From assembly GCA_016235555.1 (NCBI GenBank), contig JACRKC010000063.1, forward strand, positions 1 through 60,770: a stretch of DNA of 60,770 nt, given 5' to 3'. Positions 2,807 through 60,696 of this stretch are shown here, one piece after another; the stretch's first letter is position 1, and each line of letters opens with the position of its first letter. Source of the DNA: Verrucomicrobiota bacterium (GTDB taxonomy: Bacteria > Verrucomicrobiota > Verrucomicrobiia > Opitutales > Opitutaceae). The translations under genes were made by a program, and so were the position numbers. The notes under the pieces were generated by a model. It did not search any database. It worked only from the letters and a program-made list of their open reading frames with translations, and had not been told where the DNA came from.

Positions 2807-3674
2807 CACGCATTTCGTGCGGGCGCAGCGGCCGGCGGTGGACGCGCGGCAGGTCGAGGTCCTCGGGGAGGATGTCGGGGAGCGTGAGTTTGCGGGTGAC
2901 GGTGGACTTGCGTTTCGCGCCGTAGGCGAGGAGCTGGTTGGTCACGAGGGCGCGGAGGCGCTTGAATTCGGGATCGTGGTTGAGCGCCTTCCGCTCGCGG
3001 GGGCGGGCGAGCGTGACCGTGACGGATTCGCCGAGCGTGGCGCCGGGACCGGGCGTGAGCGGGATGATGCGATCGGCGAGGAGGAGGGCTTCGTCGACAT
3101 CGTTGGTGATGAGGACGACGGTTTTTTTTTCCGCCTCCCAGATGCGCTCGATCTCATCCTGGAGCGTGGAACGCGTGAGCGCGTCGAGCGCGGAGAGTGG
3201 TTCGTCGAGCAGGAGAATCTGCGGGTCCATCGCGAGCGCGCGGGCGACCGACACGCGCTGGCGCTGGCCGCCGGAGAGCTGGCGCGGGAGTTTGTGCGCG
3301 TGGGGCGTGAGGTTGACCATCGCGATGTATTTCGCGACGTGTTCGGCCTTCTTCGCGGGCGCGTGGTTCGGGAAGACCTGCTCGACAGCGAGCGCGATGT
3401 TTTCCGTGACGGTGAGCCAGGGCAGCAGGGAGTAGTTTTGAAAAACGATGCCGCGGTCCGGGCCGGGCTCCGTGATTTCGAGGTCATTCAGTTTCACCGT
3501 GCCGCGGTCGGGTTTGAGCAGGCCGGCGATGAGCGAGATCAGCGTGGTTTTGCCGGAGCCGGAGTAGCCGACGATGGCGACGAATTCGCCGCGGCCGATG
3601 CTGAGGTTGACGTCGCTGAGAATCGGCGGGCCGCCGAAGGCTTTGCTGACATTGCTGAGTTCGAGGAAGGGCAT
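2787..3674 (-). CDS. Nitrate/nitrite ABC transporter ATPase (NrtC-like, ATPase domain only)
   Basis: About 295 residues starting at [15 protein letters not shown]; an open frame extends 45 codons upstream but those codons look like repeat DNA, not protein. Motifs are Walker [11 protein letters not shown]-loop FQNYSLLPW, signature LSGGQRQR, Walker B LLLDEP and D-loop SALD. Cyanobacterial NrtC carries an extra substrate-binding domain after the ATPase; this protein lacks one. It is separated from the permease gene by the GxxExxY element, and its last codons and stop come from an inverted repeat. Together with the other ATPase it would power uptake through the NrtB-like permease. Confidence 0.85.
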
Positions 3675-40244: not shown

Positions 40245-40345
40245 ACCAATTGCCCAATGCTTTTGGACTGTAGGCCCGGCCGCTGGCCGGGCTTACCCGG
40301 CCAGCGGCCGGTTCTACAACAAAGCAAAAGTCCAAGAGCTCCCGG
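40245..40345. repeat. Nested element: outer CAATTGCC-type arms, inner GTAGGCCCGGCC palindrome
   Basis: The inner element runs 40270-40317 (GTAGGCCCGGCCGCTGGCC to CGGCCGGTTCTAC). Outer arms are ACACCAATTGCCCAATGCTT (40245 region) and the inverse AAAGTCCAAGAG...GATTGGTAT (to 40345). The GTGGAGAAGCGCGTTGG hairpin at 40361-40393 follows and extends to within 4 bp of the next gene's stop. Confidence 0.65.
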
Positions 40346-42644: not shown

Positions 42645-45359
42645 CTACGGCGGAGTGGCGGCGAGCCACGCCGTGAGGTCGGCGTCGGTGTGGAGGTTGG
42701 TGCCGAGCTGGTAGTCGGGGGCGAGCAGGCTCGCGTAGGCGGGCTCGAGGAAACGGCGGCAATGGAGAATCACCCGGGCGTGCTGGCCGGGGGCGCGCAC
42801 GAGGCGGCCGAGCGCCTGGTTCACCTTGGTCATGCCGGGAATCTGGTAGACGCGGCGGAAGGCGGATTCGCGAGCAGCGGCGGGGTTCGGCGACCCCGCC
42901 CTACATTCTTCGAGGCGTGCGCGCTGCACGGCGTTGACCTCGGGGAGTGCGGGGCCGACGACGAGCGCGTGCGTGACGCGGCCGCCGAGGGCGTCGATGC
43001 TCTCGGCGAAACTCGAACCGAGCACGAGGAAGAGCGCGTCGGCGAGGAGCAGCGATTCGTCGACCCAGGCGGATTGCGCGGCGAGGTCGCGCAGCCGGGG
43101 CTGGAGCGCGCCGCGCACGGCGGGAAAGGCCGACTCGAGTTCGCGGGCGATGGACTCGGCGTAGGCGTAGCTGGGAAAGAACACCGCGACGCAGGGCGTC
43201 GCGGAGCTGAGAGCTGAGAGTTGAGAGTTGAGAGCCGATCCGCTCGCGGCATGCAGCGCCGCGATTGTTGCGGCCGTGGTGGTGTAGTGGTGCGAGCGGT
43301 GTTGGAAGGTCGTGTCGACGCGCGCATCGAAGGCGACGTCGTAGGCGCCGTCGCGCCACGGCGTGAGCGCGCGGAGAGGGGTGGGGCGCGCGGCCTCGGC
43401 GGCTTCCTCGACGCGGAGGAGGTCGGCGGCGGTGGTGAGTTGGGTGTAGAGTTTTTTGGTGGCGCGTTTGGTGAGGCTGCCGAGCTTATCGGGCGTTTTT
43501 TCAGGTAGGGCCGGCTCTCCGAGCCGGCCTGGGTTTTTATCTCCGATGCGTGTCGGATATTGGAACTCAGGCCGGCTCGTAGAGCCGGCCCTACACCAGT
43601 CGAGGCCGCAGGCGGTGGCGAAGCCGTCGAGGGGCGTGAGCGTGGCGCTGGCGAGGACGGCGCCGCCGAATTCGCGGAGGATCGCGGCGATCGCGGGGGC
43701 GGCGTCGAGGCAGGTGAGCGCGAGTTCGCCGTCGCGCGGGCACCACCAGAGGCGCGGGAGCGGGGGCGTGGCGGCGAGTTCCTCGACGGTGTTGGGAATC
43801 TGCCAGATGAGTTCGGCGATGTGCGGGCCGAGCGCGGCGAGATCCAGCGGCGTGGTGGTGATGAGGCGGGCGAGCGAGTCGAGCAGGTGGCGCGCGTCGT
43901 CTTCGTCGGCGGGAGAAAGCGCGTCGGTCGCACGGAGGTGCGCGAGAAAGTGGCACCAGTGGTCCCACGCGGTGACGAGGGTGGCGAGCGGGCGCGTGCG
44001 GTGGAGTTCGTCGCGGACGGCGAGCGCGTCGGCGAGGAGGAGCGCCTGCGAATGCGCGTCGGCGGCGCGGGCGGGCAGGTTGTGCGCCTCGTCGATGAGC
44101 AGGAGCGTGCGCGCCGCGGCGAAGCCGGGTTGCTCGAAGAAGAGGCCGCGGTTGCGGGGGGCGAAGACGTAGTTGTAGTCGCCGATCCACATGTCGTTGA
44201 ACGCGAGCGCGGCGCGGGTGATCTCGTAGGGACAGATGCCGGCGTCGCGCCCGGCGGCGCGCAGGGTGTCGAGGTCGCGCGCGTGGCGCTCGTCGAGGTA
44301 GAAGCGAGCGAGGCCGCTCTGCGACCAACGGGCGGCGAGGCGGTCGAGATAGGCGCAGGACTCGCGGACGCAGTGGAAGGTGTGGTTGACGCAGTGCTCG
44401 GCCTTGTTGCGGACGTGCCACGCCGCGACGGGCGTCGCGGCGTGGGACTGAGGGCGTGAGGGAGTGAGGGAAGGGGTTGCGGTCCCTGGTCCTTGCGCCG
44501 TCGTCATCGCGGCGAGGGTGCGGACGACCTGGAGCTGCCCGGTAGCCTTGCTGGTGAGGTAGAGCGCGCGGTCGAAGTGGCCGGAGCGGAGCTGGCCGAG
44601 GGCGAATTCGAGGAGCACGCCGGTTTTGCCGAAACCGGTGGGCGCCTCGAAGAACACGAGGGGATTTTTTTCGAACGCGGCGGTGAGCTCGACCTGGGTC
44701 GTTTCCTGGCCGGGGCGAGGCGCGGCGAAGGCCGGGCGAAAATGCAGGCCGCGCAGGCGCTGACGCGCGCGCAGTCGCAGGTCGAGGAACTCGGTGACGC
44801 GTTCGAGCTGGACGCGGAAGAGCGCCTCGTCGGCCGGGGTGAGTGCGATGGTTTGGAGAAGGCCGGTGGCGGGCTCGACGAAAGTAAGCTGAGAGTTGAG
44901 CGCTGAGAGTTGAGCGCCGGAGGAACCGAGCCGCCAGAGCGCGGCGTAGGTGGCGAGCTGGACGAAATACCCGGGATATTCGGCGCGAAGCTCGGCCTCG
45001 TCGGCGGGCAGCGCGCGCGTGACCGTCTTGATTTCGCGGAGGACGGGGGGCGATGGAGTGTAACCTAATAGGTTACACTCCGCAGGGGGAAAGGGAGGGC
45101 GGAGGAGTTGGTCGATGCGGCCGGAGAGGGTGAGCGTCCAGCCGCGGTGGACGAGGCGGCCTTCGATCGTGACCTCGAACTCGGCGGCGGGACCGTGCTC
45201 GGCGGTGGCGCGGGCGCGCAATTCGTTGTGCCAGTGCGTGCCGAGCTGGGCGCGCCAGACGCCGCCGGAGCCGCCGCCGGCATCGTGCGGGCCGACGGTG
45301 AAATTGGCAAAATCGCCGACGCTCAGCGACGCGGTGCGGTGGTCGAGATCGAAGAGCAT
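42645..45359 (-). CDS. RecB-type nuclease fused to XPD/DinG-like Fe-S helicase
   Basis: A 904-residue protein. The N-terminal PD-(D/E)XK nuclease shows GRID (D83), EIKT (E109, K111) and the QLATYAALW (QxxxY) motif. The helicase follows: Walker A EAPTGFGKTG (239-246), Walker B LLLIDEAHNLP (421-428), and four cysteines (C323, C330, C335, C376) spaced like the XPD/DinG iron-sulfur cluster. Motif VI-like QALGRLVRAPGQHARV is near the C-terminus. It would unwind and cut DNA in repair. The gene contains at least five in-frame repeat insertions (42879-42904, 43206-43234, 43505-43594, 44888-44917, 45055-45081) and another low-complexity stretch near residues 286-308. It follows recO on the same strand. 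Confidence 0.88.
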   Translation of the reverse strand: MLFDLDHRTASLSVGDFANFTVGPHDAGGGSGGVWRAQLGTHWHNELRARATAEHGPAAEFEVTIEGRLVHRGWTLTLSGRIDQLLRPPFPPAECNLLGYTPSPPVLREIKTVTRALPADEAELRAEYPGYFVQLATYAALWRLGSSGAQLSALNSQLTFVEPATGLLQTIALTPADEALFRVQLERVTEFLDLRLRARQRLRGLHFRPAFAAPRPGQETTQVELTAAFEKNPLVFFEAPTGFGKTGVLLEFALGQLRSGHFDRALYLTSKATGQLQVVRTLAAMTTAQGPGTATPSLTPSRPQSHAATPVAAWHVRNKAEHCVNHTFHCVRESCAYLDRLAARWSQSGLARFYLDERHARDLDTLRAAGRDAGICPYEITRAALAFNDMWIGDYNYVFAPRNRGLFFEQPGFAAARTLLLIDEAHNLPARAADAHSQALLLADALAVRDELHRTRPLATLVTAWDHWCHFLAHLRATDALSPADEDDARHLLDSLARLITTTPLDLAALGPHIAELIWQIPNTVEELAATPPLPRLWWCPRDGELALTCLDAAPAIAAILREFGGAVLASATLTPLDGFATACGLDWCRAGSTSRPEFQYPTRIGDKNPGRLGEPALPEKTPDKLGSLTKRATKKLYTQLTTAADLLRVEEAAEAARPTPLRALTPWRDGAYDVAFDARVDTTFQHRSHHYTTTAATIAALHAASGSALNSQLSALSSATPCVAVFFPSYAYAESIARELESAFPAVRGALQPRLRDLAAQSAWVDESLLLADALFLVLGSSFAESIDALGGRVTHALVVGPALPEVNAVQRARLEECRAGSPNPAAARESAFRRVYQIPGMTKVNQALGRLVRAPGQHARVILHCRRFLEPAYASLLAPDYQLGTNLHTDADLTAWLAATPP
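42879..42904. repeat. In-frame GGCGGGGT palindrome inside the helicase gene
   Basis: GGCGGGGTTCGGCGACCCCG with arms GGCGGGGT and ACCCCGCC, followed by CTAC, i.e. one hairpin with a GTAG foot on the other strand. It encodes CRAGSPNPA within the helicase C-terminal domain, between the LEE and AFRRVYQIPGM segments. A related sequence lies at 47236-47260. Confidence 0.6.
43206..43234. repeat. In-frame GAGAGTTGA tandem microrepeat in the helicase gene
   Basis: GCTGAGAGCTGAGAGTTGAG and following units tile the region; on the coding strand they read LNSQLSALSS. A second such stretch lies at 44888-44917. The copy number here is about four heptameric units. Confidence 0.7.
43505..43594. repeat. In-frame 90-bp REP doublet inside the helicase gene
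   Basis: Arms 43505-43531 (GTAGGGCCGGCTCTCCGAGC...) and 43568-43594 are inverted, 26 of 27 positions identical. Each arm is itself a hairpin (CCGGCTC/GAGCCGG) with a GTAG foot. The element is exactly 30 codons long and leaves the reading frame open; it encodes the extra segment CRAGSTSRPEFQYPTRIGDK and following residues. Confidence 0.88.
44888..44917. repeat. Second in-frame GAGAGTTGAGC microrepeat in the helicase gene
   Basis: GCTGAGAGTTGAGCGCTGAG repeats the unit GCTGAGAGTTGAGC twice. On the coding strand it gives AQLSALNSQL between the nuclease and helicase domains, at residues 149-158. Confidence 0.7.
45055..45081. repeat. Perfect 27-bp palindrome inside the nuclease domain
   Basis: GGAGTGTAACCTA, one central base, then TAGGTTACACTCC: 13+1+13, no mismatch. 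It spans nine codons (ECNLLGYTP region, residues 94-102) between the GRID and EIKT motifs of the PD-(D/E)XK domain. The reading frame used avoids the TAA that the other frame would give. Confidence 0.85.
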
Positions 45360-47099: not shown

Positions 47100-47200
47100 G
47101 TTACGGTGCGCTTTGAGACTGCAGGCCCGGCCGGTGGCCGGGCAGCCCGCCCAGCGGGCGGGCCTGCAACGGAAGGGCTGAAAGTTGCGGGACGTTGGTC
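47092..47200. repeat. GCAGGCCCGGCC palindrome with CCAGTTACGGTGCGC flank
   Basis: CAGGCCCGGCCGGTGGCCGG and CCCGCCCAGCGGGCGGGCC hairpins (47121-47167) form a GCAG/CTGC-footed variant of the GTAGGCCCGGCC doublet. Flanking outer arms TACCAGTTACGGTGCGCTT and the following AAAGTTGCGGGACGTTGG are imperfect inverses. No gene lies in 46897-47260; it is filled by this and the preceding element. Confidence 0.65.
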
Positions 47201-47260
47201 TGACCTACCGTTGCGAAACCGAACCGGAAAGCCGTGCCGCGGCGGGCGCGGCGACCCCGC

Positions 47261-50807: not shown

Positions 50808-50873
50808 GTAGCGACGAGCGCCAGTGAGTCGAAGAGCGTCGGCTCGCTGGCGCTCGCCGCTACGATCATGCAT
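50808..50873. repeat. GTAGCGACGAGCGCCAG palindrome upstream of the kinase
   Basis: GTAGCGACGAGCGCCAGTGAG and the inverse CTCGCTGGCGCTCGCCGCTAC form a GTAG-footed doublet. About 60 bp before it are also shared with the copy at 60641-60696 (CTCGTTGGGT..., GGTTGGGTAGCG). It is in the 623-bp gap 50669-51291, which has no gene. Confidence 0.7.
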
Positions 50874-53307: not shown

Positions 53308-53581
53308 GGTTGGCGTTGAAGAGACGAAGAGCGACCCGCGGGCCGGCGCTCAGCCTGCGACCGGCACGCGGCCGGCGACAGGGCGCGTGAGTCGGCGCGG
53401 AGGTCGTCGGGCGCGAAACCATGCCCGGCCGGAAAAGCCTGAATTTGGGGCATAGCGAGGTTCACGTGCATGCCGCTCCAACGGATGAAACCAGAGTCAC
53501 TTGAGAGGCGGTAACACCCACCGCGGGCGCGGGATTTTTGCGCCTACGTAGTAGCGCGACCCGGAGGTCTCGTGACAGGCA

Positions 53582-53631
53582 GCCGCGAGCGCCAGCGAGT
53601 GGACCGCCCGCCACTCGCTGGCGTTCGCAGC
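53582..53631. repeat. GAGCGCCAGCGAGTGG palindrome
   Basis: GCCGCGAGCGCCAGCGAGTGG and the inverse CCACTCGCTGGCGTTCGCAGC, with an 8-bp loop. Related to the 50808-50873 and 60641-60696 family, but with a GCAG foot. Confidence 0.6.
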
Positions 53632-53737
53632 CAGCGGGCGGCGCCACGTCGCGTTTCTTTTGGGTCGTTACGCTCGACTGCATGACTCCGGCCAAGCGTC
53701 CAGCCGAGGAATACCAACCTTACCTTGCTTTTGGACT

Positions 53738-53784
53738 GTAGGCCCGGCCGGTGGCCGGGCTGCCCGCCCAGCGGGCGGGCCTAC
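53738..53784. repeat. GTAGGCCCGGCC doublet
   Basis: GTAGGCCCGGCCGGTGGCC and GCCCAGCGGGCGGGCCTAC are two inverted hairpins with GTAG feet. Outer arms TACCAACCTTACCTTGCTT and AGCTACGGGACGTTGGTAT flank it. Confidence 0.7.
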
Positions 53785-53912
53785 AACGGAAAGTCTGGAA
53801 GCTACGGGACGTTGGTATCACGCGGTGGCGGGACGGATCGGTCGCAGCGGCGATCGGCGCTTAGCCGGAATCGTGCAGTCAAACATGCTATCGCTGTCGA
53901 ACCGACGGAATC

Positions 53913-60325: not shown

Positions 60326-60422
60326 GGTTACGGTGCGCTTTGAGACTGTAGGCCCGGCCGGTGGCCGGGCAGCCCGCCCAGCGGGCGGGCCTGCAAGATC
60401 AGGAGTCTCAAAGCGCGCCGTA
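60326..60422. repeat. Nested element: GTTACGGTGCGCTTTGAGACT arms enclosing a GTAGGCCCGGCC doublet
   Basis: Outer arms CGGTTACGGTGCGCTTTGAG and the inverse CTCAAAGCGCGCCGTAGCTG enclose a GTAGGCCCGGCC...GGCCTGC inner unit (60348-60394). A copy with the same inner family is at 47092-47200. The tract 60143-60770 has no gene beyond this and the next repeat; a further GC-rich imperfect palindrome spans about 60170-60300. Confidence 0.7.
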
Positions 60423-60640
60423 GCTGTTATTACGCCCCGGGTGCGGAGAAAAGGCCTTGGTTTTCCGGCGGGCTCCGCCTGTTTGCGAAATCGCGTTGAT
60501 GAACGATGCCCGCTTCCGCCCCGCTCGTCGAATTGGTGACTTGGGCGCAGGCACACATCACCGGTGACGGGAGGGGGGCAGGCGCAGATTTTCATTCTCG
60601 TTGGGTTCGATACCGCGAAGCTGGCTTCGGCTTGATTGGG

Positions 60641-60696
60641 GTAGCGACGAGCGCCAGCGAGTCGAAGAGCGTCGGCTCGCTGGCGCTCGCCGCTAC
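60641..60696. repeat. Second copy of the GTAGCGACGAGCGCCAG palindrome
   Basis: GTAGCGACGAGCGCCAGCGAG and the inverse CTCGCTGGCGCTCGCCGCTAC. The roughly 45 bp before it (TCTCGTTGGGTTCGATACCG...) are also shared with 50760-50808, so the repeated unit is larger than the palindrome. Confidence 0.7.

Follow-up and report, generated by a model that had tools for sequence, protein, structure and literature searches.

A GTAG-type REP doublet in the reading frame of a nuclease-helicase gene, and repeats in the linkers of its relatives

The nuclease-helicase gene of this member of the Opitutaceae contains a 30-codon segment that is a mobile repeat: a GTAG-tagged REP doublet of 90 bp at positions 43505-43594 of the window (the whole stretch of 60,770 nucleotides that was analysed). 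According to the structural model, the doublet probably sits in a disordered linker between two helicase domains. The same linkers of this helicase have been filled repeatedly across the family by unrelated repeats. We regard it as very likely that a REP dimer of the GTAG type, mobilised by a REP-associated tyrosine transposase (RAYT), is tolerated in the disordered linker and that such insertions are filtered by selection.

Structure of the doublet and its place in the helicase

The doublet (no strand assigned) begins at base 2 of codon 589 and covers codons 589-619. It comprises two inverted arms of 27 nt (GTAGGGCCGGCTCTCCGAGCCGGCCTG and GTAGGGCCGGCTCTACGAGCCGGCCTG; 26 of 27 nucleotides identical) at 43505-43531 on the plus strand and at 43568-43594 on the minus strand, separated by an unstranded spacer of 36 nt (43532-43567). 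The first 26 nt of arm 1 are those of 19 of 20 arms among those listed; the one mismatch of arm 2, TCC to TAC, is located at the hairpin tip. Each arm forms a hairpin and the GTAG feet occupy the outer ends of the doublet, in keeping with the short hairpin and the GTAG or GTRG foot of GTAG REPs; position, length and arm identity were all given correctly in the preliminary description of an intact doublet. The stem pattern occurred 2 times in the window versus 0.00 expected (100 shuffles). On the coding strand, the RNA of the doublet is predicted to fold into a single long hairpin (−68.5 kcal/mol, z −10.9); the window gave no match to Rfam at the gathering score and, thus, no known RNA family. 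Two of the three sense frames through the element are open; the third is interrupted by three stops, including the TAG within the GTAG foot.

The host gene (42645-45359, minus strand, as are all domains given here) is an open reading frame of 904 residues for a DinG/XPD-like helicase with a nuclease-like N-terminal domain. Pfam assigned DEAD_2 to residues 305-439 (44043-44447) and Helicase_C_2 to residues 723-879 (42723-43193): the frame is kept, as claimed earlier, and domains are present on both sides, as in a protein-coding insertion. The nearest solved fold was the Finegoldia magna DinG (9kqh), followed by XPD (Foldseek), and rad3, DinG and other NCBIfam models matched, all under their cut-offs. 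The approximate nuclease domain (residues about 60-205; 44745-45182) was delimited by invariant residues and by a Foldseek match to SSO0001 (4ic1), which we take to be Cas4; D82, E108, K110, Q133 and Y137 are invariant across 44 sequences and fit a PD-(D/E)XK nuclease motif. Based on these residues, the DinG/XPD-like folds and the Pfam helicase domains, the label nuclease-helicase used in the preliminary description is reasonable. The named relatives are Opitutaceae. Two in-frame CTCAACTCTCA tracts are also present in the gene (43215-43232 and 44898-44914, minus strand); each lies in a further variable loop and encodes residues of the ALNSQLS type. The 18-mer from the tract at 43215-43232 has 7 sites in the genome versus 1 for the reversed pattern.

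In the AlphaFold2 model of the helicase (44 sequences, mean pLDDT 80), residues 588-628 (43476-43598) had pLDDT values below 50 and the lowest block means in the model; the doublet is therefore located in a probably disordered linker, which bears out the proposed loop location as a prediction. Along the protein, the insert comes after the SATL motif region and before the second helicase domain. In the sister gene (L041/L051), the doublet segment is absent and the site empty; between the same anchors, there are 120 residues in the window helicase versus 98 in the sister. Since the sister segment is shorter by 22 and not by 30 residues, the loop around the element has changed too: the earlier figure of about 30 added residues is right for the element itself (30 codons) but not for the difference from the sister protein.

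Dispersal of the repeat and its coding copies

The genome of the window (8.03 Mb, 140 contigs) contained 82 strict arms compared with 0 for the reversed pattern, i.e. the many dispersed copies typical of GTAG REPs. The foot was GTAG in 66 and GTGG in 13 of the 79 distinct strict arms from the stretches examined; their inner stems revealed the compensatory changes likewise expected of such repeats (CCG/CGG in 25, CCC/GGG in 19, ACG/CGT in 19, GCG/CGC in 5, TCG/CGA in 3, others in 8). GTAG REPs also flank RAYT genes: a RAYT gene of 145 residues (L233, 2929-3366; NF047646, 108.5 bits versus a cut-off of 80) was found between variant doublets at 2807-2914 (14 bp upstream) and 3377-3471 (10 bp downstream), both of which combine one arm with the family stem and one arm with a changed stem. 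Upstream of the RAYT, the preceding gene terminates just inside the flanking REP, at its first bases (2807-2810 of L233); the foot of this REP supplies the stop, as described for other species (Di Nocera et al. 2013; PMC3733652). A search of the genome for Y1-transposases listed ten matches, of which L233 and seven other loci were examined; at L128, L130, L131 and L132, the same stretch also contains inverted repeats that end in GTAG or GTGG. With other inverted repeats at other Y1-transposase genes, several RAYT/REP pairs may coexist in this genome. The window itself contains another palindromic family (47110-47204, 53727-53821 and 60337-60431, also near 40258 and 51123; one copy starts with TGTAGGCCCGGCCGGTGGCCGGGC and ends with GCGGGCGGGCCTACA) and a further palindromic repeat at 50808-50863, 53578-53631 and 60641-60696 (GTAGCGACGAGCGCCAG...CTGGCGCTCGCCGCTAC in two copies).

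A total of 57 doublets, both RAYT-flanking ones included, were read in context (54 plus three paired by a looser rule). A total of 53 open frames cross an element; besides the window gene, 20 were scanned with Pfam and the rest were judged spurious by eye. The search of the genome for coding copies that the preliminary description had suggested yielded 16 in-frame doublets distributed over 14 genes, with Pfam support on both sides for 15 of the doublets. The hosts are this DinG/XPD-like helicase, an MFS transporter, UvrA, a TrmA/RlmD-like methyltransferase (L196, domain match downstream only), a P-type ATPase, Tex, a molybdopterin oxidoreductase, an RND transporter, an SBP_bac_5 protein, a NuoG-like protein, an HrpA-like helicase (L213, contig C51 of the same genome) with three doublets of 81, 89 and 90 bp, a DUF7133/cytochrome c protein, an SNF2 helicase and an Fpg-like glycosylase. 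Excluded from this set after the scan were L107 and L118 (element ahead of the Pfam-supported part), L202 and L220 (no Pfam match), L206 (one-sided domain, single arm) as well as L215 and L216 (domains on both sides but only single arms). The insert of the SNF2 helicase (624-651) has SNF2-rel_dom (346-623) on one side and Helicase_C (657-769) on the other; it sits exactly at their boundary, a location of the type seen in the window helicase. The solved structures of UvrA and Tex homologues are without the inserted segment; of 64 Tex relatives with a match, the alignment was broken at the insert in 43 and continuous in 21.

The coding doublets (n=16) were 79-93 bp long. Lengths of at least 98 bp were found in 0 of 16 coding versus 20 of 41 other doublets (Fisher p 0.0004), and lengths of 84-97 bp in 7 of 16 versus 3 of 41 (p 0.003); the length bins were picked after the lengths had been seen, and the 41 other doublets, all those not counted as coding, may not all be intergenic. 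On average, 3.8 of 6 frames per doublet were open; the family is thus easily read through.

Repeats in the linkers of the orthologues

A match to the helicase was obtained in 115 of the 120 genomes searched (own genome included), and 54 named helicase loci were found, mostly of Opitutaceae or Opitutae. The orthologue set comprised 144 loci, 118 of them distinct; after five short ones had been dropped, 113 distinct sequences remained. They varied in length at 17 places, with the largest ranges at q588-659 (0-110 residues), q286-308 (1-92), q144-151 (1-64) and q91-105 (0-60). Inverted repeats with a score of at least 17 numbered 17 in 15 genes, and 17 of 17 were positioned inside three hypervariable regions (around q93, q285-322 and q588-661) that account for 11.8% of the residues, their borders drawn after the alignment had been seen; in 339 codon-shuffled genes, the score reached 16 at most. 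At a score of at least 14, 32 of 34 repeats were in the three regions, and 26 of the 113 genes contained such repeats; as some orthologues are near-copies (L101/L154), gene counts are not event counts. In the neighbour-gene control, 13 repeats with a score of at least 15 were present in 375 other conserved frames (577 kb) compared with 13 in 54 helicase frames (141 kb), i.e. the neighbour density was about one quarter of that of the helicase; several of the 13 control repeats are antisense to the helicase or near a frame end, so that this background is probably overstated.

By sequence, the loop repeats of the orthologues are of several unrelated kinds, and some resemble simple inverted tracts and not REPs. 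Five inserts were checked, and all five belong to repeats that are scattered over the genome of the orthologue concerned (L104 in G094, L037 in G101, L038 in G024, L162 in G090, L166 in G066; L162 and L166 are from the same genus); the L162 repeat had 1 and 2 weak matches in genomes G040 and G096. Three orthologues that are 96.5-98% alike outside the loops (L050, L067 and L071; 692-702 of 717 positions agree) differ in loop C: L050 is without a palindrome, L067 has an inverted GGAGATGG tract and L071 a doublet with GTGG feet. On a quick tree (LG+G4), at least 11 changes were needed for the loop-C palindrome, with 16 rows labelled by eye as bearing one, among them L055, the decayed arm of which is below the threshold. 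In the Tex linker, inverted repeats were detected in 3 of 29 relatives (L235, GTAG-tagged; L247; L248), with L263 yielding no linker segment; the score misses unequal dimers, and the doublet in Tex of the window genome was itself unscored. The assumption that the helicase is the sole target was rejected in view of the 13 other genes with in-frame doublets and the repeats in the Tex linker of relatives.

A related doublet, which belongs to the same repeat family, is present at the same place in one other genus (L022), and a decayed one in L055. The L022 doublet is 90 bp long and lies 7 nt past the same codon and 11 nt ahead of the same motif (distances read by eye); the doublets of L021 (the window gene) and L022 are equal in length and in distance from both anchors. 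Their arms agree at 23 and 24 of 27 nucleotides, whereas their spacers agree at only 15 of 36. Each doublet has the usual foot of its own genome (GTAG in 66 of 79 arms of the window genome; in G053, the genome that contains L022, GTGG in 41 of the 43 strict arms), and L062, the sister of L022 (665 of 717 identical), is without a doublet. Two readings are possible, one old insertion with converted arms or two separate insertions; if it was one old insertion, its long retention would leave room for a function.

Origin and retention of the insert and comparison with known systems

We see the GTAG-type REP dimer as a non-autonomous element that probably owes its mobility to a RAYT gene of the same genome, presumably that of L233. 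It would have landed in the DNA that encodes the linker joining the two motor domains of the nuclease-helicase; if this linker is disordered and freely variable in length, about 30 extra residues would be tolerated, and the protein that carries them presumably still works. Copies would survive if they leave the frame intact, are not read in the frame in which the foot contains TAG, and are located in such linkers; the others would be lost by selection, which we infer to act as a filter on doublet insertions. Against this explanation count the neighbour-gene control with its only fourfold lower density and the equal doublets of L021 and L022, which may stem from one long-retained insertion; furthermore, many of the targets are nucleic-acid enzymes, which simple tolerance does not obviously predict. 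It appears unlikely, in our view, that in the Opitutaceae the linkers of nucleic-acid enzymes act as recurrent landing pads, with unrelated REP families repeatedly entering the same few disordered loops, with turnover even among near-identical genes and with lineage-specific protein segments or mRNA hairpins that are favoured and not merely tolerated. We give a rather slim chance to a functional segment or mRNA hairpin, i.e. to insertions that alter activity, translation speed or co-translational folding and are kept for this reason: The hairpin is very strong, the targets include UvrA, the HrpA-like protein with its three doublets, SNF2, the Fpg-like protein, Tex and this helicase, the insertion is possibly common to two genera, and mutator effects have been speculated upon (Di Nocera et al. 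2013; PMC3733652). However, the loop sequence is not conserved, the close relatives L050, L067 and L071 have unrelated repeats or none, and transporters, the SBP_bac_5 protein and oxidoreductases are targeted as well.

With 30 residues added to a motor protein, the insertion might also have inactivated the helicase and left a frame-preserving pseudogene; as the frame of 904 residues is open with its conserved columns kept, and open-frame relatives have other inserts in the same linker, this is very improbable. Native sequence that merely resembles a REP, which the open frame and the related doublet at the same place in L022 could suggest, was rejected and deserves practically no credence: identical arms are dispersed in the genome, the sister gene is without the segment, and the RAYT adjoins doublets of the family. 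Because of this dispersal, the copies in L022 and L055 likewise represent repeats, and the 30 residues are not a native sequence shared with distant homologues, the finding named beforehand as decisive against an insertion.

In the tolerance and filter explanation, which we prefer, selection on the frame has left a trace that can be measured, namely the length shift that separates the coding copies from the rest. The helicase loops represent a natural insertion scan, in which many relatives have received several unrelated repeats in the same few loops. For the repeated capture of unrelated repeats at orthologous loops across a family and for the length shift of coding copies, no report was found in the literature searched, which covered few subscription journals.

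REPIN/BIME doublets of Pseudomonas and enterobacteria consist of two inverted REPs with a RAYT, and the window doublet is like them in this respect. In contrast to its coding position, most REPs are located between genes (PMC3733652). As a palindromic repeat in frame within a protein gene, the doublet is also similar in kind to the Rickettsia palindromic elements, the parallel drawn in the preliminary description. The latter have a CGTC end, and CGTC repeats are without a dedicated transposase (PMC3733652), whereas the window doublet has a GTAG foot and a RAYT. The type itself, supposed earlier to be unreported, is known: Di Nocera et al. (2013; PMC3733652) describe many intragenic in-frame GTAG REPs from several species, most of them in Opitutus terrae, and the window doublet therefore belongs to a known kind. 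Many of those REPs are in repair genes, nucleic-acid enzymes are frequent targets there too, dimers code for 20-30 residues, and flexible linkers or loops were proposed as their likely place; whether in-gene REPs are tolerated or useful, a question that these authors left open, becomes testable by single-element deletion. The copies described here resemble the intragenic REPs of Opitutus terrae, a member of the same phylum, in the GTAG foot, the hairpin, the in-frame dimers, the repair and RNA-enzyme genes concerned and the REP-flanked RAYT genes (PMC3733652). They differ in the DinG/XPD-like host, the name DinG occurring 0 times in the main text of that paper, and, compared with the one same-site case noted there, recB of Xanthomonas (PMC3733652), in that the same linkers were refilled across a family.
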